From a virus, in IMG/VR virus record IMGVR_UViG_3300046529_001166, positions 1 to 41,506 of that record: DNA of 41,506 bases; one strand, given 5' to 3'. Shown here in pieces: positions 2,373 through 41,506 of the stretch; position 1 is the stretch's first letter; every line of letters begins with the position of its first letter. The notes under the pieces are model-generated. The model was not told the origin of the DNA. It saw nothing but the letters and a program-made list of their open reading frames with translations, and did not search any database. Position numbers and translations under genes: made by a program.

Positions 2373-5300
2373 CGTGCGTTCCTTCCGGTGAGTGAGGCGC
2401 GGCGTCCGGGCGCGCTCGGGGTTGCCCGGGACATCCCGGCCTTGCGGGCGACCCGGGTGAGACGCTGCTCGACCGCGACGTCGAGATAGGGCGCCAGGTC
2501 GCCGCTGATGTGGACGTGATTCTCGACCGCCGCGCCCGAGGCGTCGGCCGGCACCACGGTCTCACCCTTGTGGCCCATGTAGAAGCCGTCCGCGGGCAGC
2601 ACACCGCCGGTCTTATAGGGCCCGAGGTAGTCGGCGAGGACCGGGCGCTGCGCCCGCTCGACGGCGAGTTCGGCCGAGAGCTTGCGATTCCGCTCTTCTT
2701 CGGCCGCGAGTTTGGCCGCGTCCGCTTCGCCTTCGCCTTCGTGTGGGCCGGCCGCCTTGAGCCCGAGTTCGCGAATAGTCATCTGCGTTTGGAAGATGTC
2801 GCCGCTGAAGCCGTCGGCGCTCGGCACCGGCGAGAGCGAGGTGAGAAGGGCGTGCGTCTTGCCGAGCCCCTGCACGTCGGTGAGCTTGTCCTCGAAGCCG
2901 CCGAGTTTCGTTCGCGGGTTGTAGAGAGCCCGCAGGTTTTCGAGCGTCGTGCGCAACGGCCCGAGCCGATACTTCTGCGCCCGGTAGGCGGCCGGTTTGG
3001 ATTTCTTCAGGCCTTCGATGCTGCCGATCTGTTCTTCGGTTTCTCTCTCCCGCTTCACCGCGGCGTGCTCGGCTTCGATGATCGTGTTCCGCCAGGAGAG
3101 CTCGGTGCCGAGGATGCCGGTGAAGGCGCCCGACTCCGCTTCGTTGTAGCCGGCGTCGAACTGTTCGGGCTCGAGCGCCATGAGCTTTTCGGCGTGGTCG
3201 CTTGCCTCGTTGTAGGTGCGTTCGCGAAGGTCGAGCCGGTCTTCCCACCCTTTCATCACGCCGCGCTTTTCGATCCGGTGTTCGGTCTGCTTTTCGCGCC
3301 GCTGTTTCACGAGCCGGGCCTGTTGCTTAATCAGCGCCTTGATCCGGGCGCGCAGGAGGTTGATATTCACCTGTAGGTCTTTCCGCGTCGCCGCGTCCTT
3401 GTGCATCCGGTAGGCGCCCTGATACTCGCGAAGCTGCTTCTGCCGTTCTTCGAGCTCCTTACGGCAGGCGATGAGGTTCGAGGGCAGGGCCCCGAAGCTG
3501 AGTTTCGCCGTTGCCACGAAGCCTTTGCCGTGGCCGGTCAACTGGCCGACGAAGGAGGCCGGGCCGTGTTTGGGATCGTGGACGCCGTAGCCATAGGTCG
3601 GATAGCGGGTCGAGACGAACTTCGGAGTCGCCGGCGTTTTGGCGCCGGCGGCGGTAGAGGCGCCGTCGGCCGGTTCGACCCGCACCACACCGAGGCCGTT
3701 CGCGCTCGTGATGCCGAGCTTTGCCCCCGTCTCGAACCAGAAGTCGACCGCCCGATTCTTCCCCGCGACGTCGCCGCCGCCGGCACCGATGTCGAGCTTT
3801 TCGGCGACGACCGAATGCCCGGCTCGAGAGAACTTGAACTTCGTGTGAAAGGGAAGACCGCCGAGGGCGTGGCCCATCGCGAGCTCGGCGAAGCTCGAGG
3901 TGCCGGCGAGAGGGACGCCCGCGGCGCCGACGGTGCCGCTGACGTGGTCCGTCGGACCGCCGTAGTAGGAGGCGCCGACGAGCTCGCCGCCCTTCGGTGG
4001 CACCGGGCCGCCGGATGACATCGCGAGGATGCCACCGCCGGCGAAGCCCTTTTTCTGATGCTGCCCCTTGCCCCGCTTGCCCTTCGGCGCGATCAGGTTG
4101 ACGAGGTCGGCGTGTCGGGTTGTGAAGCCGGGCCGGTAGGTGTATTCGTTGATCCATCCCGCGCCGCCGCCGGGGTTCGAGTCCGAGGTGCCGAAGGCGC
4201 GCCCGCCGATGACGCTGTAGACATGGTCGGCCGAGGCGAGCACCGAGACCTTGCCCTTGCCCGGTGAGCCGAAAGACTCGAAGCCGCCCGAGACCATCGG
4301 CGCGAAGTTCCAGCCGGCGCCGTTGAAGAGCTCCGAGATGGCGCCCGAGCAATCCCACGGCCCGCCGACCGATGCGGTCGAACCGTGGCCGCCGCCCCAT
4401 AGATACGGCTGTTGAAGCCCATCCATCCGGTTAGCGTTTTTGACGATGGCCGCGTAGCTTTTATCGCCGCCGAGTTTTCGCACGAAGGCGGCGGCGCCGG
4501 CATACATTTCGTGCACCGCCGCTTGGCCGATGGAGTGAAGCGGGCCGCTGCCGCCGATGTGCGGTTCGGTCAGGCCGCCGCGCGCCATGTAGTGCGGCCG
4601 GTTGTTGCGGCCGAAGAAATCGCCGAGGCCTCTTGTGCCCGGATAGGTTGAGGCGACGGCGTGGTCAAGCATCGGGCGCTGATGGCGGTTTATGACCGCG
4701 AGCTCCTCGCCCGGCGCGACCATCGCATTGAGGCCGCCGTTGAGGAAGAGCGGGACCGTGTCCTGCTTCCCCTTGCCCGGGACTCGAGTCAGGCCGCCGG
4801 CCGCTTCGCCCGGGATCCCGATTGACTTGAAAGTTCCATGTTTGATCTCGAAGTTGAGCGCCTTGTTGACGTTCAACTGGCCCAACATCGAATTGACCGT
4901 GCTCTGAATCGCTTCGGCCGAGGTGCCCACCGAGTCGGCCATCCCACCGAAGTCGGTTTCGACGCCGCTCGTGAGTTTGTGGAAGGCACGCAGACCGGCC
5001 TTTTTTGTCTGCCCGAACTTGGTTTCGAGGTTGAGCCGCAGGACGTCGACCTGATGTTCGATCTTCGGGTGCCCCTTCGCCCACGCCGCGGCCATCCCGA
5101 GCACGGCTTCCTGCGCCTGTTCGCGAGCGCCCTTCGGCATCTGCCGGAAGTCGGCGACGATTTCGCGGATCCCCGACTCGGTCACGGCGTTCCCCTGCTT
5201 GAAGGAGGTGACGAAGCCGGCCGCCAGGCCGAGCGGGTCCGAGCCCTTGACGAGGCCGATTTTGTCGAGAAGCCTGTTTATCTCCTTGCGACCCTTATCG

Positions 5301-18394: not shown

Positions 18395-18570
18395 TTACGC
18401 CCCGGTGCCGGGTGTGCCGCGGTAGACGAGCTCGTGCATTTCCGCGAGGCGCTCGGCGATGCCGTCGAGCACGACCCGCACCGCCCGGTCGGGCCGGTCG
18501 AGCTTGTAGCCGAGGCCGACCTTGCCGCCGTTCATCCGCACCCGGAAGCGCGCGGTGGCACCCGCTGCCC
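18395..18570 (-). pseudogene. DUF2303 protein, C-terminal fragment
   Basis: The minus strand encodes ARFRVRMNGGKVGLGYKLDR and then a helix and VYRGTPG, the usual C-terminal pattern of DUF2303 phage proteins (YfdQ type). The matching N-terminal part lies on the opposite strand at 18613..19342. Joining base 19342 to the complement of 18570 restores one frame through CAC-CGG-GCA, giving a 301-residue protein. The open frame extends to 18592, but residues before the join (MVVVTRRR) look like read-through of the inverted piece. It is therefore a gene fragment in this arrangement. Confidence 0.75.
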
Positions 18571-19342
18571 GACGACGAGTCACCACGACCACTCAACTAG
18601 GAGGAACCACGAATGCCTGAGCACGACGAGACAGCGCCCGATTTCAAACCCCTTGAGGCCGAGCTCGGTGCCATCCATGCCGGCGACGCGGCCATCATCC
18701 AAACCGCGCAAGAGGCCGTCGCGCCGAAGGAGCTCAACGTCACCGAGCTCTACGCAGTCCGCGGCGAGGATGGCGCCCTCGAGGTGCTCGACCTCGAGCG
18801 TTACCGAGTGCAACCCGACCGGGCCCGCTGCACCGTGCGGCCCGGAACGGTCGACGCCCTCTCGGCCTACGTCAAGCGCCACGGCATCGAGGGGCATACC
18901 TCGGTGTGGGTTGCGCCGGACGCCGGCAGGATCATCGCCGTCATCGATGAGCACGGCGCCGACGCCGTCGCCGAGGCGCGCTTTCGACAGCACCGCGCCG
19001 AGCTCGAGCTCCTGGTCACGCCCGAGTGGGAGTTCTGGCTCAAGCGCGACGGCGAGCTCATGGATCAGCAGGCCTTCGCCGAACACATCGAGGAGGGTCT
19101 TGACGACATCCGCGAGCCGGACGGCGCCACGATGCTCGAGGTCGCGCAGTCGATCCACGGCACGAACAAAGCGACCTTCCGCTCGGGCTACAAGCTCGAG
19201 AACGGCGAGCTCAAGTTCGGCTACGACGAGGACGTCAACATCCGCGCCGGCGACCCGCAGAAGCACGGCGAGCTCGCCATCCCGCACGAACTCAAACTCG
19301 CGGTCGCGCCGTTCATCGGCGAGCCCGCCTTCGAGCTGCACC
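18570..19342. other. Apparent 773-bp inversion splitting two genes
   Basis: The segment carries the DUF2303 N-terminal part on the plus strand, the only plus-strand gene in 30 kb of leftward genes. At each edge a minus-strand gene is cut. Turning the segment over joins DUF2303 to its C-terminus (18395..18570). It also gives the small partner gene (19695 to 19343) a natural end, DDESPRPLN and TAG at 18571-18600, just before the DUF2303 start. No single choice of breakpoints restores both frames; they differ by one base, consistent with loss of 1 bp. Only a short imperfect inverted repeat is visible at the edges (CGCTGCC at 18563, GGCATCG at 19343). It may be a real rearrangement, a mixed population or an assembly error. 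Confidence 0.75.
18613..19342 (+). CDS. DUF2303 family protein, N-terminal part (inverted)
   Basis: Residues 1-243 from ATG 18613, after AGGAGGAACCACGA, match the DUF2303 pattern: NVTELYAVRGEDGALEVLDL, ALSAYVKRHG, VWVAPDAGRIIAVIDEHG, TPEWEFWLKRDGELMDQQAF, then an IPHELKLAVAPFIGEPAFEL end. The family occurs in temperate and lytic phage genomes beside recombination or replication-type genes; its biochemical role is unknown. Beyond 19342 the plus frame stays open to 19725 but only mirrors the convergent gene, so it should not be taken as protein unless the inversion is real and expressed. See the inversion entry for the missing C-terminus. Confidence 0.75.
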
Positions 19343-19695
19343 GGCATCGATGTCTGATTCGGGTTGCGACGGGTGAGGTTGCCCTTGCCGTCGGTGAAGA
19401 ACATCGAGCTCTGCTTGTCGACCGGCGGTTTCGCCTTCACCTCGTCGGTGATGAAGACGGCCGCCTGCCCCTTGCCGGCCGGGTTGATCTTCAGCGTCAG
19501 CGTCAGCGTGCCCGACTTGTTGAGGTCGATGACGGCCTGCGAGATGTTCGCGAGCTCGTCGGAGAGCTCGGCGTGCAAGCTGCCCTGCCGCTGTTCCTGC
19601 AAGACCGCGGCGAATGGCCGGCGCTCGGGCCCCTCGGGAGGTTGGCCGTCGCCAGGTTGCTCGGGCGGATCGGGAACGGCGGTCGGCTTCGTCAT
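19343..19695 (-). CDS. Small conserved partner of DUF2303 (5' part)
   Basis: From ATG 19695: a Pro-rich start, then AELSDELANISQAVIDLNKS, GTLTLTLKINPAGKGQAAVF, ITDEVKAKPP and SSMFFTDGKGNLTRRNPNQT. This is the pattern of a short phage protein that commonly precedes DUF2303 genes. The natural end (DDESPRPLN, stop TAG 18598-18600) lies on the plus strand at 18571-18600 because of the inversion; intact length would be 127 residues. The frame as it stands runs open to 18580 as antisense of DUF2303. The leader has a start-associated sequence with an extra CGT (19704-19721) and a TAGGGT -10 box at 19738-19743. Confidence 0.75.
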
Positions 19696-19743
19696 CGTGA
19701 GGGCTCCTTCGTCGTCGTGGTCTAGATCGCGCTCGCGACCCTA
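19696..19743 (-). promoter_or_regulatory. Promoter plus start-associated leader for the DUF2303 unit
   Basis: On the minus strand TAGGGT (19738-19743, preceded by GTG) fits an actinobacterial TAnnnT -10 box. A start about 7 nt on gives a 35-nt leader containing CCACGACGACGAAGGAG before ATG 19695. The same -10/leader geometry appears at four other loci. No convincing -35 is seen. Confidence 0.5.
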
Positions 19744-19765
19744 CACCCCTCGGCGGTCGAAGGAG

Positions 19766-19923
19766 TTATCCACAAGCGCGGGTGTGGATAACTACGGATG
19801 CGGTGTGGAAACCGTGGCCGGCGCGGGCGTGGCCGGACTTGTCCACACCTTTCCACAACCGTTTCAACAGGCGGTTTTCGGCGCCGGCGCGGGCGAAACC
19901 CCGCCTTCCGCGACTTCTCCACA
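19766..19923. other. DnaA-box cluster, probable replication origin
   Basis: The 257-bp intergenic region 19696-19952 holds six 9-mers close to the DnaA box. They are TTATCCACA at 19766-19774; its exact inverse at 19783-19791; GTTTCCACA (minus) at 19804-19812; TTGTCCACA at 19839-19847; CTTTCCACA at 19849-19857; and TTCTCCACA at 19915-19923. TTATCCACA is the classic high-affinity box and TTGTCCACA the actinobacterial consensus. The region next to it (19926-19952) is relatively A+T-rich and could be the unwinding site. No polymerase, primase or helicase gene is present, so initiation by host DnaA is the natural reading. Function is inferred. Confidence 0.7.
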
Positions 19924-19952
19924 AGCCCTACTACTACTCGAATAGATAGAAG

Positions 19953-20216
19953 CTAGGAGAGGTCTCGGGAAACGGTGACGATGAGATGCTGCGCGTTGGG
20001 CGAGTCGCCGGCGTCCTCGTGCCCTTCGATGGTGACGAGCTTGTCGCCGGCGATGCCCTCGGCCGCGGCGATGGCGGCCTTGACGCCGGCGTCGAGTTGC
20101 TTCTGCGGGATGTGGCCGGTCTCGGTCTCCTCATCGAAGGCGACCTCGGCGTCCTCGCGGCCGAAGCCCGTCCACTTGCCGCCGGCCTTCACCTTCTTCT
20201 CGATGCGCCAGTTCAT
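19953..20216 (-). CDS. Hypothetical protein
   Basis: An 87-residue protein, last gene of the unit that starts at 22417, sharing TGATG with the gene before it. The pattern WRIEKKVKAGGKWTGFGRED and a C-terminal strand HLIVTVSRDLS suggest a small alpha/beta fold. No family is recognised. Its stop lies just outside the probable origin region, so transcription of this unit would run toward the DnaA boxes. Confidence 0.75.
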   Translation of the reverse strand: MNWRIEKKVKAGGKWTGFGREDAEVAFDEETETGHIPQKQLDAGVKAAIAAAEGIAGDKLVTIEGHEDAGDSPNAQHLIVTVSRDLS

Positions 20217-26062: not shown

Positions 26063-26514
26063 CGTTCCTCCTCGCTCGCGCTGACGACGACGCTCGCTTT
26101 TCGTCCGGCCGGGTCGGCGTAGATGACGGTCAGGTCACCGGCGACCAGGCCGCCGCCGGCGTAGACCTCGGCCCGGAAGCGGCGGCCGACGGTGCGGGCG
26201 CCGTCCTCGGTCCATCGGCCGTGCTCTTGGATGTCGATGATCGCGTCGCGCTCGTTGTCCTCGAGGGCGTAGACGCCGAGTTGCACGGTCGACGTGCCGA
26301 CGTAGACCGGCGGCGTGCCGGTGCCCCAGATGAGGAGCTCGACGTTCGCCCCCTCGGCGATGGCCTTCCGCTCGAGGTCGTTCGGCACCCACGTCGAGCC
26401 GATGACGGGCTCGCCATGCTCGCCGCGGCGCTCCTCAACCCATAGGTCATTCGCGTCGGTGCCGCCGGGTAGGACGAAGCGCTTCGTGCACCGGACGGTG
26501 CGCTCGTGCTTCAT
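26059..26514 (-). CDS. Hypothetical beta-rich protein
   Basis: A 151-residue protein from ATG 26514. It is rich in predicted strands (VELLIWGTGTPPVYVGTSTV, QLGVYALEDNERDAIIDI, VAGDLTVIYADPAGRKASVV) with no catalytic signature. Overlaps of 4 nt join it to both neighbours. No family is recognised. Confidence 0.72.
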   Translation of the reverse strand: MKHERTVRCTKRFVLPGGTDANDLWVEERRGEHGEPVIGSTWVPNDLERKAIAEGANVELLIWGTGTPPVYVGTSTVQLGVYALEDNERDAIIDIQEHGRWTEDGARTVGRRFRAEVYAGGGLVAGDLTVIYADPAGRKASVVVSASEEER

Positions 26515-26741
26515 GCCCCGATTGGGAAGAGCTCGGGCCGTTGGCCGATGAGCTCATTGCAGGCCGCGAGCTCGTCCGCATCCTGCTCGCGATCCGGGTC
26601 GAAGAGGCTCGGCCAATCGCGGAAGACGGCGAGGCGTGATGCCTGCTCCCATTGCTGCTTGAGCATCACCCGCGCTCGCTGCGTCGGACTCAACTTTTTC
26701 CACGCCTCCCGGTACTCGGCGTAGCTCGGATCGGTGCTCAT
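26511..26741 (-). CDS. Hypothetical helical protein, first gene of a seven-gene unit
   Basis: A 76-residue protein: SYAEYREAWKKLSPTQRARV and MLKQQWEQASRLAVFRDWPS are amphipathic helices. Start ATG 26741 directly follows ACGAAGGAGGCACCACGA. No family is recognised. It heads the unit ending at 25011. Confidence 0.72.
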   Translation of the reverse strand: MSTDPSYAEYREAWKKLSPTQRARVMLKQQWEQASRLAVFRDWPSLFDPDREQDADELAACNELIGQRPELFPIGA

Positions 26742-26742
26742 T

Positions 26743-26766
26743 CGTGGTGCCTCCTTCGTCGTGGTT
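26743..26766 (-). promoter_or_regulatory. Start-associated sequence
   Basis: Minus strand AACCACGACGAAGGAGG plus CACCACGA, immediately before ATG 26741. No clear -10 box is seen upstream. The rest of the 201-bp gap 26742-26942 holds two hairpins (26825-26844 and 26868-26917) and no gene that I can support. Confidence 0.6.
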
Positions 26767-26867
26767 ATCGCTCCGACGCCGGCGGCCCGAGTAGCCCACC
26801 CTGATCGCGCCGACGCCGAAGCGTGTCTCGTCCGCGAGCGAGACTACACCCGCGACCGGAAGAAGGC

Positions 26868-26917
26868 GACCCCTCGAGGGTTGCCGCGACTCGATGGTCG
26901 CAGTCCCTCGAGGGGTC
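26868..26917. terminator. Strong 13-bp inverted repeat with nested hairpin
   Basis: GACCCCTCGAGGG (26868-26880) pairs perfectly with 26905-26917; inside the 24-nt loop GCGAC (26886-26890) pairs with GTCGC (26897-26901). It lies 26 bp downstream of the stop of the gene at 26943-27290, so it may end that single-gene unit. Being symmetrical it could act in either direction, or be a protein-binding site. Confidence 0.55.
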
Positions 26918-26942
26918 ACGTGGTGCCCCGCGAGCTCGAAGG

Positions 26943-27290
26943 CTACTCGGCGGTGGTGTCGATGCGCGCCTTGCCGGCGATGCGCCAGACCGCCACGGCT
27001 CCTTCGCGAGCGTGCTCCTTCGTGGTGTAGCCCTCCGACTGCGCGACGACCTCGCCGTTGCCGGACTTCAGCCGCCACCGGAAACCGTCCTCGCTCGGGA
27101 AGACCTCGAAGACCGCGTCATGCTGCGCGCCCGGGTCGATGGCGGTGAGCGCGACCTTGTGCATCGTCCCGCCCTCGCCCTCGGGATAGCCGAGGTAATA
27201 GCCCGGGTCGGTGAAGCGCTCGCCGGCGTAGTAGAGGACTCGGCCATCGGGAAGCTCCGCGACCTTGTCCATTGGGGATGAGACCTCCAT
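26943..27290 (-). CDS. Hypothetical protein in a single-gene unit
   Basis: A 115-residue protein with its own leader and downstream hairpin. Strands such as GRVLYYAGERFTDPGYYLG, MHKVALTAIDPGAQHDAVFE and FRWRLKSGNGEVVAQSEGYT suggest a DUF1508-like or other small beta domain (the FRWRLKxxNGEVVAxSEGY pattern resembles YegP/DUF1508 repeats). That resemblance is suggestive, not certain. ATG 27290 follows ACGACGAAGGAGGAATCACG. Confidence 0.68.
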   Translation of the reverse strand: MEVSSPMDKVAELPDGRVLYYAGERFTDPGYYLGYPEGEGGTMHKVALTAIDPGAQHDAVFEVFPSEDGFRWRLKSGNGEVVAQSEGYTTKEHAREGAVAVWRIAGKARIDTTAE

Positions 27291-27356
27291 CGTGATTCCT
27301 CCTTCGTCGTGACTGAAGGCGGCGCGAGCGCAAAGCGGCCGATGCCCGGCGCCCTA
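27291..27356 (-). promoter_or_regulatory. Start-associated sequence with possible promoter
   Basis: Minus strand TCACGACGAAGGAGGAATCACG precedes ATG 27290; a TAGGGC at 27351-27356 is a weak -10 candidate that would give a 50-nt leader. The gap 27291-27419 otherwise shows nothing I can support. Confidence 0.45.
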
Positions 27357-27419
27357 CCCGTATGGCCATCGCAGCATCGACCGCCGCTGCACCTGCTTAG
27401 GATTACCGCCGCCGGCAGC

Positions 27420-27734
27420 CTACACCGACGTCCACTCGCCGGCGCGCAGCCATCCATGCCAGCGGTTGCCGTGAGTCACGACGATGGAAGGCGAGACCGT
27501 GATCGTCCCGTCGGCATGCTCCTCGACGGTGTGGTGCTCGAAGCGGATGCTCGAGACGTCGCCGGTCGGGTCGCGGATATACCACGCCCAGACTTCGCCC
27601 TCGGGTCCGAGCACCTTCATATAGGCGCCGAGCGGAGCGACGAGCACCCGCCGCCTGCCCCGTTGCAGCCGGTCCCACTTCGACCACCCGCGGCGAGCGT
27701 CGCGCTTGACGTCGGGAAGGCGGGTGCCCTTCAC
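27420..27734 (-). CDS. Hypothetical basic protein
   Basis: A 104-residue protein from GTG 27734; GGAG lies 6 nt upstream and the start overlaps the preceding TGA as GTGA. A basic N-terminus (RLPDVKRDARRGWSKWDRLQ) is followed by strands (VLVAPLGAYMKVLGPEGEVW, ITVSPSIVVTHGNRWHGWL). It could be a small nucleic-acid-binding protein. No family is recognised. Confidence 0.7.
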   Translation of the reverse strand: MKGTRLPDVKRDARRGWSKWDRLQRGRRRVLVAPLGAYMKVLGPEGEVWAWYIRDPTGDVSSIRFEHHTVEEHADGTITVSPSIVVTHGNRWHGWLRAGEWTSV

Positions 27735-29963: not shown

Positions 29964-30028
29964 AGGTCTTGACAGGTTAGGGTCTTTTGTGGTTTAATAG
30001 ACCTATGACCACGACGAAGGGAGACACG
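29964..30028 (+). promoter_or_regulatory. Early promoter, operator-like repeat and start-associated leader
   Basis: TTGACA (29969-29974), an 18-bp spacer and TTTAAT (29993-29998) form the best sigma-70-type promoter in the window. Initiation would fall at about ATG 30005, i.e. a leaderless message. TAGGGT at 29978-29983 is an alternative -10 giving a 38-nt leader like other units. AGGTCT (29964-29969) and AGACCT (29999-30004) are an inverted repeat bracketing the promoter and could be an operator. The start-associated element is at 30008-30028. The gap 29910-29963 upstream also contains the late-strand leader, with no clear promoter. Confidence 0.65.
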
Positions 30029-30799
30029 ATGGATAGCACGGATCAGATGGGAACCGACCGCACGACAGACGCGAGGGAGTTGACTGCCGCCCCGATTCTC
30101 CTCGATGCCTTCTGCGGCGCCGGTGGCGCGGGAGAGGGGTACCGCCGCTCAGGTTTCGACGTCATCGGCGTCGACCACAAGCGCCAGCCTAACTATCCCT
30201 TTCAGATTTTCTATGGCGACGTGATCGAGATTCTCGGCGCAATTCTCGATGGGAGGTGGGTAGAGCGATGGGGATTGCCGATGCCACAAGGCATCCATGC
30301 CTCGCCCCCATGCCAGGCGCACTCGGACCTTCGCCACCGGACGGGCCTCGAGTACCCCGAACTCGTCGCGCCAGTCCGCGAGCTCCTCGAAGAGACCGGA
30401 CTGCCGTGGATCATCGAGAACGTGGAGGGCGCTCCGCTCCGCGACCCGGTCACTCTCTGCGGCACGATGTTCCCCGGCTTGCGAGTGCTTCGCCATCGGC
30501 TCTTCGAGTCGAACTTCCCGCTCGAGACGCCCGCGCATCCAACCGAGCCGCACCCCCCGGTCTTCACGACCGACAAACGGAAATCGCATTACGGCAAGCT
30601 CGATCAGGACATCTCATTCGTGTCGGTCACCGGCGGCGGGAACTGCTCGATTGCGAACGCACGCTCGGCAATGGGCATTGAGTGGATGACGAAGCCCGAG
30701 CTCAACGAGGCGATTCCCCCGGCCTACACCGAGTATCTCGGCCGTCAGCTTCTCTCACACATTGAATCCACCACGACGAAAGGAGCACCACGACCATGA
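30029..30799 (+). CDS. C5-cytosine DNA methyltransferase
   Basis: A 256-residue enzyme with motif I LLDAFCGAGGAGEGYRRSGF (SAM binding), VDHK after it, motif IV ASPPCQ (catalytic Cys95), and motif VI IIENVEGAPL. The target-recognition region is short (residues about 150-215), as in many orphan phage methylases that protect phage DNA from host restriction. I start at ATG 30029, preceded by the start-associated element; a leaderless start at ATG 30005 would add MTTTKGDT. First gene of the early arm. The sequence specificity cannot be read from the protein alone. Confidence 0.93.
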   Translation: MDSTDQMGTDRTTDARELTAAPILLDAFCGAGGAGEGYRRSGFDVIGVDHKRQPNYPFQIFYGDVIEILGAILDGRWVERWGLPMPQGIHASPPCQAHSDLRHRTGLEYPELVAPVRELLEETGLPWIIENVEGAPLRDPVTLCGTMFPGLRVLRHRLFESNFPLETPAHPTEPHPPVFTTDKRKSHYGKLDQDISFVSVTGGGNCSIANARSAMGIEWMTKPELNEAIPPAYTEYLGRQLLSHIESTTTKGAPRP

Positions 30800-31687: not shown

Positions 31688-32176
31688 ATGACGAGAGCAG
31701 AGAGAATCGTAATCGCCGCGATCATCGCGATCATGCTCCTCCTGGCGGCCATCGCCGGCGGGATGGACAAGGCCGACGCGGCCATCAGCGGGCCGGTGCC
31801 GTTCTCCCCGAAGGCCGAGCGCTTCTATGAGGAAGCCCTCACATACTGGAATCTGCCGGTGCCCGAGGCATGCCCGACCGTGACGCGCGAGCTCGTGCCG
31901 GCCGGTTCGCTGACGCCCGACCTCGGCTTCTTCGAGTACGAAGAAGGGGTCTACTGCCGGATCCAAATTGACGAGTCGGTCGTGAGGTCGTGCGAACTTC
32001 GGCAATTGGTCTTCCACGAGACCGGCCACCTTGTCGGCCTCGAACACTCGACCGACCCGCGGAGCTATATGTATCCCGATACCTACCAGGGCGCGCCGGC
32101 CACCTGGCAGATGTGTCGGGAAGAGCATCCGAAGCTGCACCACGGCGCGACGATTCACGCGGGGCGAGCGCGATGA
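31688..32176 (+). CDS. Secreted metzincin-like zinc metalloprotease
   Basis: A 162-residue protein with a signal peptide or membrane anchor (residues 7-24, possible cleavage after ADA at 31). HETGHLVGLEH (residues 110-120) is the metzincin zinc site HExxHxxGxxH (His110, Glu111, His114, His120), followed at 128 by a Met-turn candidate in RSYMYP. Four Cys (62, 90, 102, 143) suggest disulfides outside the cytoplasm. It would cleave a protein at the cell surface; a role in exclusion of other phages, release or envelope remodelling is inference. The catalytic domain is short for the family. Own promoter; overlaps the regulator gene downstream by ATGA. Confidence 0.82.
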   Translation: MTRAERIVIAAIIAIMLLLAAIAGGMDKADAAISGPVPFSPKAERFYEEALTYWNLPVPEACPTVTRELVPAGSLTPDLGFFEYEEGVYCRIQIDESVVRSCELRQLVFHETGHLVGLEHSTDPRSYMYPDTYQGAPATWQMCREEHPKLHHGATIHAGRAR

Positions 32177-32565
32177 AGCGGCCGACGAAAGCCGAGCGCG
32201 ACGCGGCGACGAGCGCACGGATGCTCGCCCATCCGATTCGCCGGCGGATCCTGCGCCGCCTCGAGGAAGCGAAGTTCGCCTCGCCGGCCGAGCTCGGTCG
32301 CGAACTCGAGCTTCCGGTCGCCACCGTCAGCTACCACATGCGGGTGCTTCGCTCGAACGGCGCGGTGAAGCAGGTGAAGACGCGGCGGGTGCGCGGCGCG
32401 ACCGAGCACTTCTTTCGGTCGACGGGGAAGGTCTCACTCAGGAGTGACGCCGAGACCGCGCTCGACCGCATCACCGAGGTTGTCGACGTGCGCGAAGGGG
32501 AAACCGACGTGATGATCGAAGCGGTCCGCGACATTCTGGCCGAGACGGGCCGCGGCACTCGGTAG
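32173..32565 (+). CDS. ArsR-like winged-helix transcription regulator
   Basis: A 130-residue protein. MLAHPIRRRILRRLEEAKFA, SPAELGRELELPVATVSYHM and RVLRSNGAVKQVKTRRVRG are helix 2, the recognition helix and the wing of an ArsR/HTH_20-type domain (residues about 17-85). No Cys-rich metal site is present. Translationally coupled to the metzincin gene. It is the only clear DNA-binding regulator in the window and a candidate to act on the repeated promoter leaders or on the tandem repeats at 34433. Confidence 0.85.
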   Translation: MKRPTKAERDAATSARMLAHPIRRRILRRLEEAKFASPAELGRELELPVATVSYHMRVLRSNGAVKQVKTRRVRGATEHFFRSTGKVSLRSDAETALDRITEVVDVREGETDVMIEAVRDILAETGRGTR

Positions 32566-32616: not shown

Positions 32617-32913
32617 ATGCGAAGCAAACCACCACCGCCCCTAGCCGAGACGGCGCAGGTCATCATCAGCATCGAGGTCAAGGACGGGACCGGCTACGGC
32701 GCCCGCCAGGTCGCGAAGACGGTCCTCGAGGAGCAGGTCGTACTCGAGGACGCCGGCGAGTTTGATCGCTACCCGCCGGTGCGCGACAAGGTCCGCGACC
32801 TGGCCGACAACGCGATCAGCCGTACCGACACGCAGGTCGACGCTCACAACGCGCTCGTCAAGGCCGAGCAGGCGAAGGCCGAGGCCGAGAGGCCTGATAC
32901 CCCGCCGGCCTGA
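32617..32913 (+). CDS. Hypothetical protein
   Basis: A 98-residue protein: strand AQVIISIEVKDGTGYGARQV, then helices (VLEEQVVLEDAGEFDRYPPV, KVRDLADNAISRTDTQVDAH) and an Ala/Glu/Lys-rich tail. It opens a unit of six coupled genes (32617-34414). No family is recognised. Confidence 0.72.
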   Translation: MRSKPPPPLAETAQVIISIEVKDGTGYGARQVAKTVLEEQVVLEDAGEFDRYPPVRDKVRDLADNAISRTDTQVDAHNALVKAEQAKAEAERPDTPPA

Positions 32914-33107
32914 TGTCCCGCCATCCCCGCTATGACACCGAGCTCCGCGAGAAGGCACTCGCCGTCTATCGCGAGCTCAAGAGCTACCGGAAGACCGGCA
33001 CGCGGCTCGGTGTCAGCGGGAAGCGGGCCCACGTACTTGTGAAGGAGGGGATGCGCCTCGAGCTCGAGGCCGCCCGTAAACGCGACGAAGGAGACACGAC
33101 GAAATGA
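32913..33107 (+). CDS. Small helix-turn-helix protein
   Basis: A 64-residue protein from ATG 32913 (TGATG). ELREKALAVYRELKSYRKTG followed by TRLGVSGKRAHVLVKEGMRL has the spacing of a homeodomain-like helix-turn-helix of the transposase/resolvase type. It is too short to be an enzyme and probably binds DNA. Other members of this unit look recombination-related. Confidence 0.7.
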   Translation: MSRHPRYDTELREKALAVYRELKSYRKTGTRLGVSGKRAHVLVKEGMRLELEAARKRDEGDTTK

Positions 33108-33763
33108 GCACCACGACGCAGGTTCAACCCCTGATCGACCCGACCGAGCTCGAGAGCTTCGAGGAGGCGCAGGAGAAGATCAAGCGGGCCCGCGGCCTGA
33201 TCGACCGGATCCCGGCCGAGCTCGATGACGACTCGGCGAGCACCGCGGCCGACGCCCTGAAAGAAGCCCGCTTCGCGGTGCAGGACTTGGAGGTCTCGCG
33301 CAAGGCCGAGAAAGAGCCCTATGCCGTCACCGGCCGGCGCATCGACGCCGACTTCAACGAGCTCAAGTCCTCGCTCGAGGCGGCGATGGACTCGCTGAAA
33401 GCGCGGGTCATCGCCTACAACGCGAGGGTGCAGAAGGCGGCCGAGGAAGAGCGCAAGCGAATCGAGCGGAATGCCGAGGCGCGCCAGAAGCGAGAGGACG
33501 AGAAAGCGGCGAAAGAGAACCGCGCCTCTCACGATAAACGCGGCGCGCCGGCGCCACCACCGCCGCCGCCATCTGCCCGCGGCATGAATGCGAAGACCAC
33601 GATCAAGAAAGTGAAGAAGTACCGCATCGAGGACGAGTCGCTGCTGCCCGACCACCTCGTCAAACGGGTGCCGGACAAACTCAAGATCAAGGCGGCCGTC
33701 AACGCGGGCGAAGCGATCCCCGGCGTGAGGATGTGGGAAGAGGACGAGGTCGCGACCCGATGA
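33104..33763 (+). CDS. Coiled-coil recombination accessory protein (DUF1351-like)
   Basis: A 219-residue protein. A long coiled coil (residues about 15-140; EEAQEKIKRARGLIDRIPAE, LKSSLEAAMDSLKARVIAYN), a Pro-rich hinge (APAPPPPPPSARG), then a small C-terminal domain KKYRIEDESLLPDHLVKRVP and IKAAVNAGEAIPGVRMWEED. This layout is typical of phage proteins encoded beside single-strand annealing recombinases (RecT/Erf type). No catalytic site. It starts at ATG 33104 after CGCGACGAAGGAGACACG. A role in recombination-dependent replication is inferred from the family's genome context. Confidence 0.75.
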   Translation: MSTTTQVQPLIDPTELESFEEAQEKIKRARGLIDRIPAELDDDSASTAADALKEARFAVQDLEVSRKAEKEPYAVTGRRIDADFNELKSSLEAAMDSLKARVIAYNARVQKAAEEERKRIERNAEARQKREDEKAAKENRASHDKRGAPAPPPPPPSARGMNAKTTIKKVKKYRIEDESLLPDHLVKRVPDKLKIKAAVNAGEAIPGVRMWEEDEVATR

Positions 33764-34499: not shown

Positions 34500-35576
34500 A
34501 TGAGCGATGAGCAGCACCACGACGAAGACGTTGTAGAGCCCGACGCAGTAGAAGAGCCCGCGGCGCCGGACACCGCCCGCACCTCGCGGGCGCTCGAGCC
34601 GGTGGCGGCGGCGCCGGCCGTCCCGAGCGTCACCCCGCAGGTAACCGCGATGGAACTCGGCGAGCGGCTCGAGCTCATCGAAGAGGTGATGCGCGAGAAG
34701 ATGGAGAAGGGCGTCGACTACGGCGTCATCCCGGGCACCGACAAGCCGGCGCTCTTCAAGCCGGGCGCCGAGAAGTTGGCGGTGCTCTTCCGGCTCGACG
34801 TGCAACCGCGCAGCACGAAGACATGGGAAGGCGAGCACCTCACCGTCGAGAATGCGGCGACCGTCTATGACATCGCCACCGGCGCCCGCATCGGCTACGG
34901 CGAGGGTCTCTGCACGACCCGCGAGAAGAAGTACGCGCGGCGCTATGGCGGCCTCTCCTGCCCGACCTGCGCGAAGGAAACGGTCAAGCGCTCCAAGAAG
35001 GAGGCCGAGTTCTACTGTTGGGCGAAGATCGGCGGGTGCGGAGAGACCTTCGCCCTCGAGGACGAGCGCATCACCTCCCAGAAGCCCGGGGAGATTCCAA
35101 ACCCCGACCTCCCCGATATGTGGAACACGGTCATAAAGATGGCCGAGAAGCGGGCCCGGGTCGACGCCGTGCTCGCCGTCACCGGCGCCTCGGCGATCTT
35201 CACGCAGGACATCGAGGACCGGGCCGAGAGCGAAGAGACCGTCGCGGCGCCCGGCCTGCCGGCGGCCACCGAGGAAGAGCTCGGCGCCCTGCGGGCCGGC
35301 CTCGAATACATCCTCCCGACGGCCGAAGCGAAGCGGGTGTGGGAGGAGATAAGAACGGCCTTCGGCGGGAACCTGTATGGGCCCGCCACGGTCGCCGCCC
35401 TGGCGCCGATCCGGGCGTTGAAGTCGATCCACGACGACGAGGCCGAGACCGAGGCCGAGACGAAACGCGACGAAGAAGCGCAGGCCGAGGCGGGTGAATC
35501 GGCCGAGGAGAAGCGCGAGCGCGAAGCCCGGGAGAAGGCCGGGAAAAAACGGACCTCGAAAGGGAAGAAATCGTGA
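34500..35576 (+). CDS. Zinc-binding phage recombination/replication-type protein
   Basis: A 358-residue protein from ATG 34500 with a full start-associated leader. After an acidic tail (1-50): ELIEEVMREKMEKGVDYGVI, PGTDKPALFKPGAEKLAVLF, VYDIATGARIGYGEGLCTTR, a Cys4 insertion (Cys154, 157, 173, 180), then NTVIKMAEKRARVDAVLAVT and FTQDIED. This pattern is a widespread phage/plasmid family often found beside recombination genes and sometimes called RecT- or Sak-like; the activity has not been settled as far as I know. The C-terminus is Lys/Glu-rich. With 33104..33763 it probably forms the phage's DNA-metabolism core. Confidence 0.75.
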   Translation: MSDEQHHDEDVVEPDAVEEPAAPDTARTSRALEPVAAAPAVPSVTPQVTAMELGERLELIEEVMREKMEKGVDYGVIPGTDKPALFKPGAEKLAVLFRLDVQPRSTKTWEGEHLTVENAATVYDIATGARIGYGEGLCTTREKKYARRYGGLSCPTCAKETVKRSKKEAEFYCWAKIGGCGETFALEDERITSQKPGEIPNPDLPDMWNTVIKMAEKRARVDAVLAVTGASAIFTQDIEDRAESEETVAAPGLPAATEEELGALRAGLEYILPTAEAKRVWEEIRTAFGGNLYGPATVAALAPIRALKSIHDDEAETEAETKRDEEAQAEAGESAEEKREREAREKAGKKRTSKGKKS

Positions 35577-37219: not shown

Positions 37220-37395
37220 CCGCGGACCGCGTCCACGAACTCCGAGACCACGGCGGGCCCGAAGGCGACGACGGCGCCGGCGATGGCGGCGACGATGCCG
37301 GTGACGCCGTCCTGCGTGAGGAAGCCGTAGAGAGCGGTGCCGAGCGCGACGCCGGTGAGCGCCTCGGTCGGGCGCTGAGCGATCTTCTTCTTCAT
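37216..37395 (-). CDS. Putative holin
   Basis: A 59-residue protein with a basic start (KKKIAQRPTEALTGVAL) and two hydrophobic segments (about 11-26 and 31-50). ATG 37395 overlaps the lysozyme stop (ATGA). It is the last gene of the late strand and is adjacent to two endolysins, the usual place for a class II holin that triggers membrane opening at lysis. Confidence 0.8.
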   Translation of the reverse strand: MKKKIAQRPTEALTGVALGTALYGFLTQDGVTGIVAAIAGAVVAFGPAVVSEFVDAVRG

Positions 37396-37883
37396 CGGTG
37401 CGATCCCTTCGTGTGAGTGTGGACGGGCGTGACCTTCTTCTTCGAGTGCAGGAACATCCACCGCTCGGCCTCGCGGCGATTCTTCAAGCCTTCGACCACG
37501 ACCCCGCCGGCGTGATCCCATTCGAGGAAGCACTCCGCGGCGCCCTTGTAGTTGCGGGCGTTGAGCTTGTGGGCGAGGGTTGAGCCGACGACGGCGCCGG
37601 GCCCGCAGTTGAAGACGAGGCTGATGAGGGCGATCCGCTGTCGGACGCTGAGCCGCACATGGATGTTGTCGCGCACCGCCCGCGCCGCGCTGCGCAGGTC
37701 GGCGGTGAGCAGGCGAAGCCCCTCGCGTTTCGTGATGTGCTCGCCCGCGTAGACGTCAGAGCCGGTATGGCCGAAGCCGATGGTGTAGACGGCCGGGCTC
37801 GCGATGGTGTCGAGATAGGCGTGAGGAAGCCAGCCCTCCCACTTCGAGACGAACCGCGCCGCCCATAGCAGCGACCACTTCAT
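37392..37883 (-). CDS. GH24 lysozyme (endolysin)
   Basis: A 163-residue T4-type muramidase. WEGWLPHAYLD then VYTIGFGHTGSDVYAG supplies the GH24 triad (Glu16, Asp25, Thr34), followed by ITKREGLRLLTADLRSAARA and LSVRQRIALISLVFNCGPGA, typical of the RRRD/lambdoid lysozyme group. It cleaves the glycan strand of peptidoglycan. No signal peptide, so release depends on the holin. Coupled by ATGA to the M15 endolysin upstream and the holin downstream. Confidence 0.92.
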   Translation of the reverse strand: MKWSLLWAARFVSKWEGWLPHAYLDTIASPAVYTIGFGHTGSDVYAGEHITKREGLRLLTADLRSAARAVRDNIHVRLSVRQRIALISLVFNCGPGAVVGSTLAHKLNARNYKGAAECFLEWDHAGGVVVEGLKNRREAERWMFLHSKKKVTPVHTHTKGSHR

Positions 37884-38521
37884 CGGTGCCCCTTCTTCGG
37901 CGCGTGGCGCTCGTGGTACTGGCGATGGAAGACGCCGTCGATCTTGGCGCCGGTCTTCGGCCCTATCTCGCCGTCGACGTGGAGATGGTAGGAGCGCTGG
38001 AACTCGCGCACCGCGCGCTCGACGCGCGAGCCGAAGCGCCCGGGCGCCCGCGCCAGGTAGGCGCCGCCGTCGGCGTGGTGGATGAAGGCGAGCCGGCGCG
38101 TGTAGTGCTTGACGCGGTGGCCCTTCGAGCCGCGCTTCAGGGTCTCGAAGCTCGGGAAGCTGACACCGCCGACGAAGTTCACGTGCCACCACTCGCTGAA
38201 GGCTTCGGTCTTCGCCCATCCATAGGTCGCGCCGTGCTCGTCTATCCACGAGCGCATCCACGGTTCCTTCAGGTCGACGCAGACGCCCTCGCCATGAAGC
38301 GAGGTGCCGACTTCGGCGGCGAGCGGACCGCCGGCCTTGTAGGCGGCCCACGTCTTTTCCTGGCCGGCGATGTCGCGATAGCTGCCCTCGGGCCCCTCGG
38401 GTCGCAGGCCGGCATCTGCGGGCCCACCGTGAGCGTTCCACCCCGCCGCGGCCGAGACGGAGAGCTCGCCGCCCGGTATCGCGGCGAGTTCGGAAGGCTT
38501 CAGCTTGCCGTTCTCTGACAC
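37880..38521 (-). CDS. M15 (VanY-type) peptidase endolysin with peptidoglycan-binding domain
   Basis: A 213-residue protein from GTG 38521. SLHGEGVCVDL (His76, Asp83) and FSEWWHVNF (Glu110, His113) are the zinc ligands and base of an M15 D,D-carboxypeptidase/L-Ala-D-Glu peptidase. The C-terminus has a PG_binding_1 repeat (LKRGSKGHRVKHYTRRL, VEREF-type helix, VDGEIGPKTG). It would cut the stem peptide while the neighbouring lysozyme cuts the glycan. The ribosome site is weak; an ATG at 38599 would overlap the collagen-like gene and add a basic stretch, which I judge less likely. Confidence 0.87.
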   Translation of the reverse strand: MSENGKLKPSELAAIPGGELSVSAAAGWNAHGGPADAGLRPEGPEGSYRDIAGQEKTWAAYKAGGPLAAEVGTSLHGEGVCVDLKEPWMRSWIDEHGATYGWAKTEAFSEWWHVNFVGGVSFPSFETLKRGSKGHRVKHYTRRLAFIHHADGGAYLARAPGRFGSRVERAVREFQRSYHLHVDGEIGPKTGAKIDGVFHRQYHERHAPKKGHR

Positions 38522-41112: not shown

Positions 41113-41506
41113 GTGGGCGGTGCGATCAGGTAGCGCGGCTGCACGAAGAGTTTTGCCGCGATGTCGTCAATACCGGCATCGTTGCGCGGATCGCGCGAGT
41201 CCTTGACCAGGATGCGGGTGATGCCCTTCTCCGGTCCGGCCGGCGGGATTGTGCAGTATTGCCCCTGGTAGGAAGGCGTGCCCCATGTGACACCGGCCGA
41301 ATCCTGTCGGCGGATCTGATCGCTGCGCACCTCAAGTTGGCGACTTGCGAAGATCGCCGCGTTCGACGCGGGTGCCCATGCTTCGAGATGGTCGAAGGTT
41401 CGGGTCGCCGGCGCCGCCGCGGCAGTCCATTCGTCATAGACGCCGACCTTGCCGGTTTTCAGGGTGCCCGCTTCGTTGAAGTCGGTGTCCTGACCCGCGA
41501 CGGTGA
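41109..41506 (-). CDS. Minor tail protein with CBM-like insertion (C-terminal part)
   Basis: This is the continuation, through the terminal repeat, of the gene that starts at 2372. The frame matches because the unit length is a multiple of three. Beyond the repeat the new sequence (SNAAIFASRQLEVRSDQIRR, then VTWGTPSYQGQYCTIPPAGP, KGITRILVKDSRDPRNDAGI) ends in TGA at 41109-41111, overlapping the hub gene ATG. Residue differences within the repeat are limited to Gln (left copy) versus His (right copy) in FD(Q/H)LEAWA. Confidence 0.88.
   Translation of the reverse strand, partial: TVAGQDTDFNEAGTLKTGKVGVYDEWTAAAAPATRTFDHLEAWAPASNAAIFASRQLEVRSDQIRRQDSAGVTWGTPSYQGQYCTIPPAGPEKGITRILVKDSRDPRNDAGIDDIAAKLFVQPRYLIAPPT
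41374..41506. repeat. Terminal direct repeat, right copy
   Basis: Right copy of the 133-bp repeat described at 1..133; the mismatch is at 41388. It marks the circular join and is not thought to be a physical cohesive or terminally redundant end. Confidence 0.93.

Follow-up and report, generated by a model that had tools for sequence, protein, structure and literature searches.

How does a tailed phage begin to replicate its DNA when it carries no recognisable gene for an initiator, helicase, primase or polymerase? The question is raised by a soil phage whose 41,506-nt sequence (the window, meaning the whole stretch of viral DNA analysed) contains an intergenic gap crowded with 9-mers resembling DnaA boxes, from which a preliminary description had drawn a model of replication driven by the DnaA protein of the host.

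Genome structure and replication gene content

The record is a virus contig bearing terminase, portal, protease, capsid, tape-measure and lysis genes, and is therefore assigned to a tailed phage. Its last 133 bp (41374-41506) repeat positions 1-133 directly with a single mismatch (15/41388), and the molecule is therefore taken to be a true circle of about 41,373 bp; a tail gene reads across the trimmed junction and ends on the start of the next gene. The window had been described as a complete circle, which is correct as to circularity but not as to size, since the ends overlap by 133 bp. Four relatives were available for comparison: G2 (41.5 kb, portal 80%), L172 (genome G8; 40.9 kb, 74%), L173 (genome G9; 41.2 kb, 59%) and L174 (74%), the last a 4-kb fragment, so that whole-genome density counts cover the window, G2, G8 and G9.

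Profile searches with Bac_DnaA, DnaB_C, DNA_pol_A, phrog_19 (DnaB-like) and Prim-Pol found none of these families in the window, G2, G8 or G9, and Pfam and PHROG scans of nearly all the larger genes of the window gave no match to an initiator. The earlier statement that polymerase, primase, helicase and initiator genes are missing from the window held in every search made. A divergent replication protein was also sought, by structure search among other means, and none was found, the best candidate being a 358-aa Rad52-like single-strand annealing protein with a zinc-finger-like insert (phrog_10048; 34500-35576, plus strand), recognised by profile and by its structure model. The model has a pLDDT of 75 and its nine best PDB matches are all RAD52 chains, the best of them at an E-value of 6e-3, which is weak but consistent, and on this modelling the protein probably serves in single-strand annealing and not as an initiator.

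Replication could instead start at another site through an unrecognised initiator, with the gap merely assisting. Many genes of the window have no assigned function, and such an initiator might possibly lie among the unassigned small conserved proteins or the non-conserved ones. Control phages without the same replication families also manage without a DnaA cluster, which means that absence of a replicase is by itself no evidence for a DnaA origin, and the general argument from the one to the other was rejected. Against a start elsewhere, sizeable conserved non-structural genes without a clear role are few (WbqC, the Rad52-like gene and a Gam/Gp157-like gene recognised by profile matches at 33104-33763, plus strand), and the genome showed no other cluster of DnaA cores; we regard this explanation as quite unlikely. 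The large extra genes of the relatives that have a clear Pfam match are DNA methylases, and the largest extra genes of G8 and G9, considered as possible replication proteins, turned out to be methylases too. The methylases differ from genome to genome (G8 2452-5132, G9 26095-27465, G2 37257-38099), the window itself having a C5-methylase-like gene at 30005-30799. The WbqC-like gene (PF08889; 16785-17387), unexpected in a phage, lies beside the portal gene and is kept in all four relatives checked, and a small protein encoded at 31688-32176 has a matrixin-type (M10) metallopeptidase motif (Pfam, 30.6 bits).

A GC-skew inflection at 19.7-19.95 kb, which the preliminary description had put forward as a check, is absent: the detrended extremes of GC and AT skew do not lie at the site, nor do they coincide across the window, G2, G8 and G9. 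Skew is uninformative here because the genome is small and weakly skewed.

The box cluster and its conservation

The gap (19696-19952) is 257 bp long and gene-free, lies between minus-strand genes that adjoin it at 19695 and 19953, and is found at the syntenic place in the four relatives; the gene at 19953-20216 (minus strand), which adjoins the AT-rich side of the gap, encodes 87 aa, and sequence comparison finds it also in G2. Within the gap, six DnaA-like 9-mers occupy 158 bp, exactly as had been noticed at the outset. Motif matching places two perfect boxes, TTATCCACA, at 19766-19774 (plus strand) and 19783-19791 (minus strand), forming the inverted pair with an 8-bp separation that had been reported. 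These are followed by the DnaA-like GTTTCCACA at 19804-19812 (minus strand), by TTGTCCACA, a match with one mismatch at 19839-19847 (plus strand), and, after a single base pair, by the DnaA-like CTTTCCACA at 19849-19857 (plus strand). The outermost box, TTCTCCACA, again with one mismatch, lies at 19915-19923 (plus strand). Repeat analysis showed that the repeats within the gap are the DnaA boxes themselves, and the gap matches no Rfam family at gathering thresholds and contains no tRNA.

The clustering goes well beyond chance, as had been supposed. The pattern TTWTNCACA matches only twice in the whole window, both times in the gap, where 0.22 matches would be expected per window, and two matches never arose in 100 shuffles. 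Sequences within one mismatch of TTATCCACA number six in the window, four of them in the gap (1.15 expected for the whole window), mismatches being counted against TTATCCACA, from which the DnaA consensus of the host may differ; two scans of genome contigs for a prophage that would point to the host gave no match. Counting only the core TCCACA, the gap has six copies per 260 bp, any other 260-bp stretch of the window has at most one, and the highest count in 100 dinucleotide shuffles was three, so that the density is equalled nowhere else in the genome.

All four relatives have a box cluster at the syntenic place, upstream of the yfdP-like gene of a yfdP-yfdQ pair. In each of the four long genomes this is the densest TCCACA cluster (per 260 bp, six cores in the window, five in G2, seven in G8 and six in G9), with at most two elsewhere and a peak of three in 100 shuffles. 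When the window is aligned with G2, five of the six boxes face a box or box-like site (CTTTCCACA facing ATTTCCACA), while much of the intervening DNA has diverged. What is conserved across the relatives is the number of boxes, the box TGTGGATAAC at 19783-19791 (exact in three of the four, L174 being the exception) and the box at 19915-19923, whose core is retained in the window, G2, L173 and L174 and reads TCGACA in L172. Nine control phages, many of similar G+C content, have at most two cores and no cluster; two of them share essentially only the terminase with the window and seven share the Rad52-like gene.

The inverted perfect pair, to which the preliminary description had given weight, did not survive this comparison as a key element: the relatives keep neither the pair nor its spacing. 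Among the 124 matches listed in an IMG/VR search for inverted TTATCCACA pairs (L029-L148), spacings of 5-6 nt occur in at least 39 and of 13-14 nt in at least 57, and few lie at 8-11 nt; the 8 nt of the window falls outside these peaks. The loss of the spacing bears on a further reading, that a phage DNA-binding protein uses the repeats as operators or iterons and that they resemble DnaA boxes by chance. Small HTH proteins (32173-32565 and 32913-33107) are indeed conserved in the lineage, and the pair AGTTATCCACA/TGTGGATAACT forms a perfect 11-bp inverted repeat. An operator would, however, need the spacing that the relatives have lost. The core common to the boxes is precisely TCCACA, and in four of the five sequences the best copy is TTATCCACA, so that this reading appears very improbable.

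The trio-like repeat and comparison with known origins

In bacteria the basal unwinding system (BUS) consists, in order, of a DnaA box, a short spacer and at least three NAN trios (PMC8287927, PMC6669920). The spacer measures 0-16 bp, typically as a GC-rich gap averaging 4 bp, and 3'-GAT-5' is the preferred trio (PMC8287927, PMC6669920). The same order, which the preliminary description had not mentioned, is present in the window as TTCTCCACA-AGCC-CTACTACTACTC followed by an AT-rich stretch. The box beside the proposed opening site, for which BUS rules allow up to two mismatches, has one; the G+C-rich spacer AGCC (19924-19927, plus strand) is 4 bp long, equal to the published mean gap (PMC8287927); and the trio-like repeat CTA CTA CTA CTC (3'-GAT GAT GAT GAG-5'; 19928-19939, plus strand), found by pattern search, has an expectation of 0.00 in shuffles. 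The pattern TCCACA-N2-14-CTACTACTACT is likewise found a single time in the window and in no shuffle. The candidate unwinding region, at 19929-19957, ranks with the 40-bp windows of highest AT content in the genome, and the adjoining stretch has the same standing in G2, G8 and G9.

For the window, then, the sequence makes a good case for reading the repeat as a DnaA-trio; for the lineage the case is partial. All five sequences retain the proximal CTA, whereas a strict run of three consecutive NAN trios, read on the 3'-5' strand, is found only in the window and L173, the second triplet being CCN in G2, L172 and L174. Nor is there a good tandem second box within 3 bp of the trio-proximal one, the next core ending at 19857, 57 bp upstream; the tandem arrangement is the commonest in bacteria, not a universal one.

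All IMG/VR contigs were searched for TTATCCACA-N2-6-CTACTACTA, with the trio read backwards as control. In number there was no excess, with 23 matches against 35 in the control. Spacers of 3 or 4 nt were found in 22 of the 23, and at least three extra cores lay within 300 bp in six of them, compared with none of the 35 controls (Fisher p = 0.0025, an approximate value, as some matches may be related contigs). The six contigs (L202, L206, L209, L211, L212 and L216) contain no DnaA gene, and therefore suggest that DnaA-type origins may reach beyond the family of the present phage. In four of them, L202, L206, L211 and L216, the boxes look like a textbook array, accompanied by a trio and an AT-rich stretch. 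Portal and capsid genes are present in L212, and genes for a DnaB-like helicase and an O-like protein in L216. The Rad52-like family phrog_10048 is also present in L209 and L216, but a general link between this family and DnaA clusters was rejected, as seven other phages carrying the gene have no such array.

Compared with a B. subtilis-type oriC, the locus has the same box orientation, a 4-nt G+C-rich spacer, 3'-GAT-5' repeats, an AT-rich stretch and further boxes on the other side; it differs in belonging to a phage, in having no dnaA gene beside it, in lacking a clear tandem box pair next to the trio, and in the imperfection of the trio in three of the five sequences. The origin oriR of phage P1 and similar plasmid origins combine host DnaA boxes with a plasmid Rep protein and iterons. 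They share with the present locus the use of host DnaA boxes in an extrachromosomal replicon, whereas neither a Rep gene nor iterons were found in the window by family scans and analysis of the repeats in the region. Lambda-type origins depend on O and P proteins and iterons, DnaA acting on transcription from pR (PMC7466680). The use of the host replisome and an effect of DnaA on initiation would be common to both, on the present proposal, but the boxes here are arranged as in oriC, no iterons were found, and the window gave no O match in Pfam or PHROGs and no DnaB_C or phrog_19 match that would indicate a P-like or DnaB-like loader or helicase. In Pseudomonas phage PseuGes_254, DnaA boxes were predicted by Ori-Finder near an AT-rich stretch, which is similar, but that phage has its own primase and polymerase, and the accessible part of the report describes neither comparative conservation nor a trio (PMC11512268). 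Predicted DnaA sites in phages of Alphaproteobacteria show no positional asymmetry (PMC9437464). A search of the open-licence literature, with subscription papers and preprints outside its scope, listed no paper that reports a DnaA-trio origin in a phage.

The conservation of the cluster in the relatives, the trio with its AT-rich stretch, and the BUS-type clusters elsewhere all favour the model of host-DnaA-driven replication first proposed for this locus. We consider it fairly probable, from the sequence comparisons, that 19696-19957 is a host-DnaA-dependent origin of a circularising tailed phage without recognisable initiator, helicase, primase or polymerase, and the syntenic conservation of the cluster in four relatives suggests that this virus family borrows host DnaA to start replication. 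Host DnaA would bind the six boxes, to judge from their motif, and a DnaA filament would extend from the outermost box at 19915 onto the trio-like repeat at 19928-19939, opening the AT-rich stretch that follows it, where the host would load its own helicase and replisome. The Rad52-like and Gam/Gp157-like recombination proteins of the phage may later take over for concatemer formation.

The yfdP-yfdQ pair beside the boxes

The gene immediately beside the gap belongs to the YfdP family (phrog_204) by profile and is collinear in the relatives; its 5' part lies at 19345-19695 (minus strand). It is paired with a gene of the YfdQ family (DUF2303, phrog_210), identified by profile and synteny, whose main part lies at 18613-19345 (plus strand). 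The E. coli proteins YfdP and YfdQ score 166 and 401 bits against these PHROGs. When yfdQRS or yfdQRT is present in extra copies, initiation by DnaA at oriC is inhibited in E. coli, and YfdR binds DnaA; for YfdQ alone, binding to DnaA was not demonstrated (PMC4776307). No YfdR was detected in the window. The connection of the pair with DnaA is thus, by analogy, a lead: the yfdP-yfdQ operon may bias DnaA towards the phage, as the E. coli yfdQRS/yfdQRT effect would suggest. The idea that yfdPQ and DnaA clusters generally go together was rejected, there being no cluster in Karkharias, Dulem virus 32 or E. coli CPS-53.

The same neighbourhood invites another explanation, namely that the boxes serve as a promoter region under DnaA control or as a sink for DnaA, which would regulate yfdP-yfdQ or stall host initiation by titrating DnaA. 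DnaA is known to act as a transcription factor, the cluster is directly upstream of the start of the yfdP-like gene, and between them is a conserved block (TAGGGT at 19738-19743 on the minus strand; TAGGGT, TAGGTT or TAGTCT in all five sequences) that could be a -10 element for that gene, although a scan for E. coli-type promoters found none for it. The inhibition of DnaA-driven initiation by yfdQRST in E. coli (PMC4776307) points the same way. Such a site could, however, do without the 4-nt spacer and trio and without the AT-rich stretch that lies beyond them, and yfdPQ occurs without a cluster in E. coli CPS-53 and in Karkharias and Dulem virus 32, both of which have primase and polymerase genes of their own. 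A promoter or sink is accordingly a credible but unlikely account of the boxes.

If the locus is instead the host-DnaA-dependent origin proposed above, these phages use the initiator of the host to begin replication at a site that copies the host's own origin logic, and their replication is tied to the availability of DnaA and to the host cell cycle. The five related origins, with their variable boxes and trios, would then be small natural test objects for a minimal DnaA origin, and the position of yfdP-yfdQ beside the origin would hint at the function of a widespread phage pair (DUF2303) linked in E. coli to DnaA inhibition. More tentatively, some tailed phages may form a class that lacks both initiator and replisome, has a full bacterial-type BUS as its origin and contests host DnaA with oriC, yfdP-yfdQ redirecting DnaA in the present lineage; we hold this broader idea to be possible but rather doubtful.

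The yfdP-yfdQ pair is itself rearranged in the window. Relative to all four relatives, the segment 18556-19345 (approximate breakpoints) is inverted and cuts both genes; it takes in most of the DUF2303 gene together with the terminal part of the YfdP-family gene, both of which still form long open frames, and alignment with the relatives shows that the 3' remainder of the DUF2303 gene (18395-18555, minus strand) keeps the original orientation. The exact breakpoints showed no strong inverted repeat. A second contig (G001), covering positions 8040-41401 of the window with two mismatches, has the same inverted arrangement, which may reflect a switch, a mutation or an assembly effect common to both contigs. 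The DUF2303 protein of G2 (L164:13159-14055) matches PDB entry 9o7m, a solved YfdQ with 36 chains, at an E-value of 1e-8; a structure is therefore known for the YfdQ family, whose members may build a large assembly.
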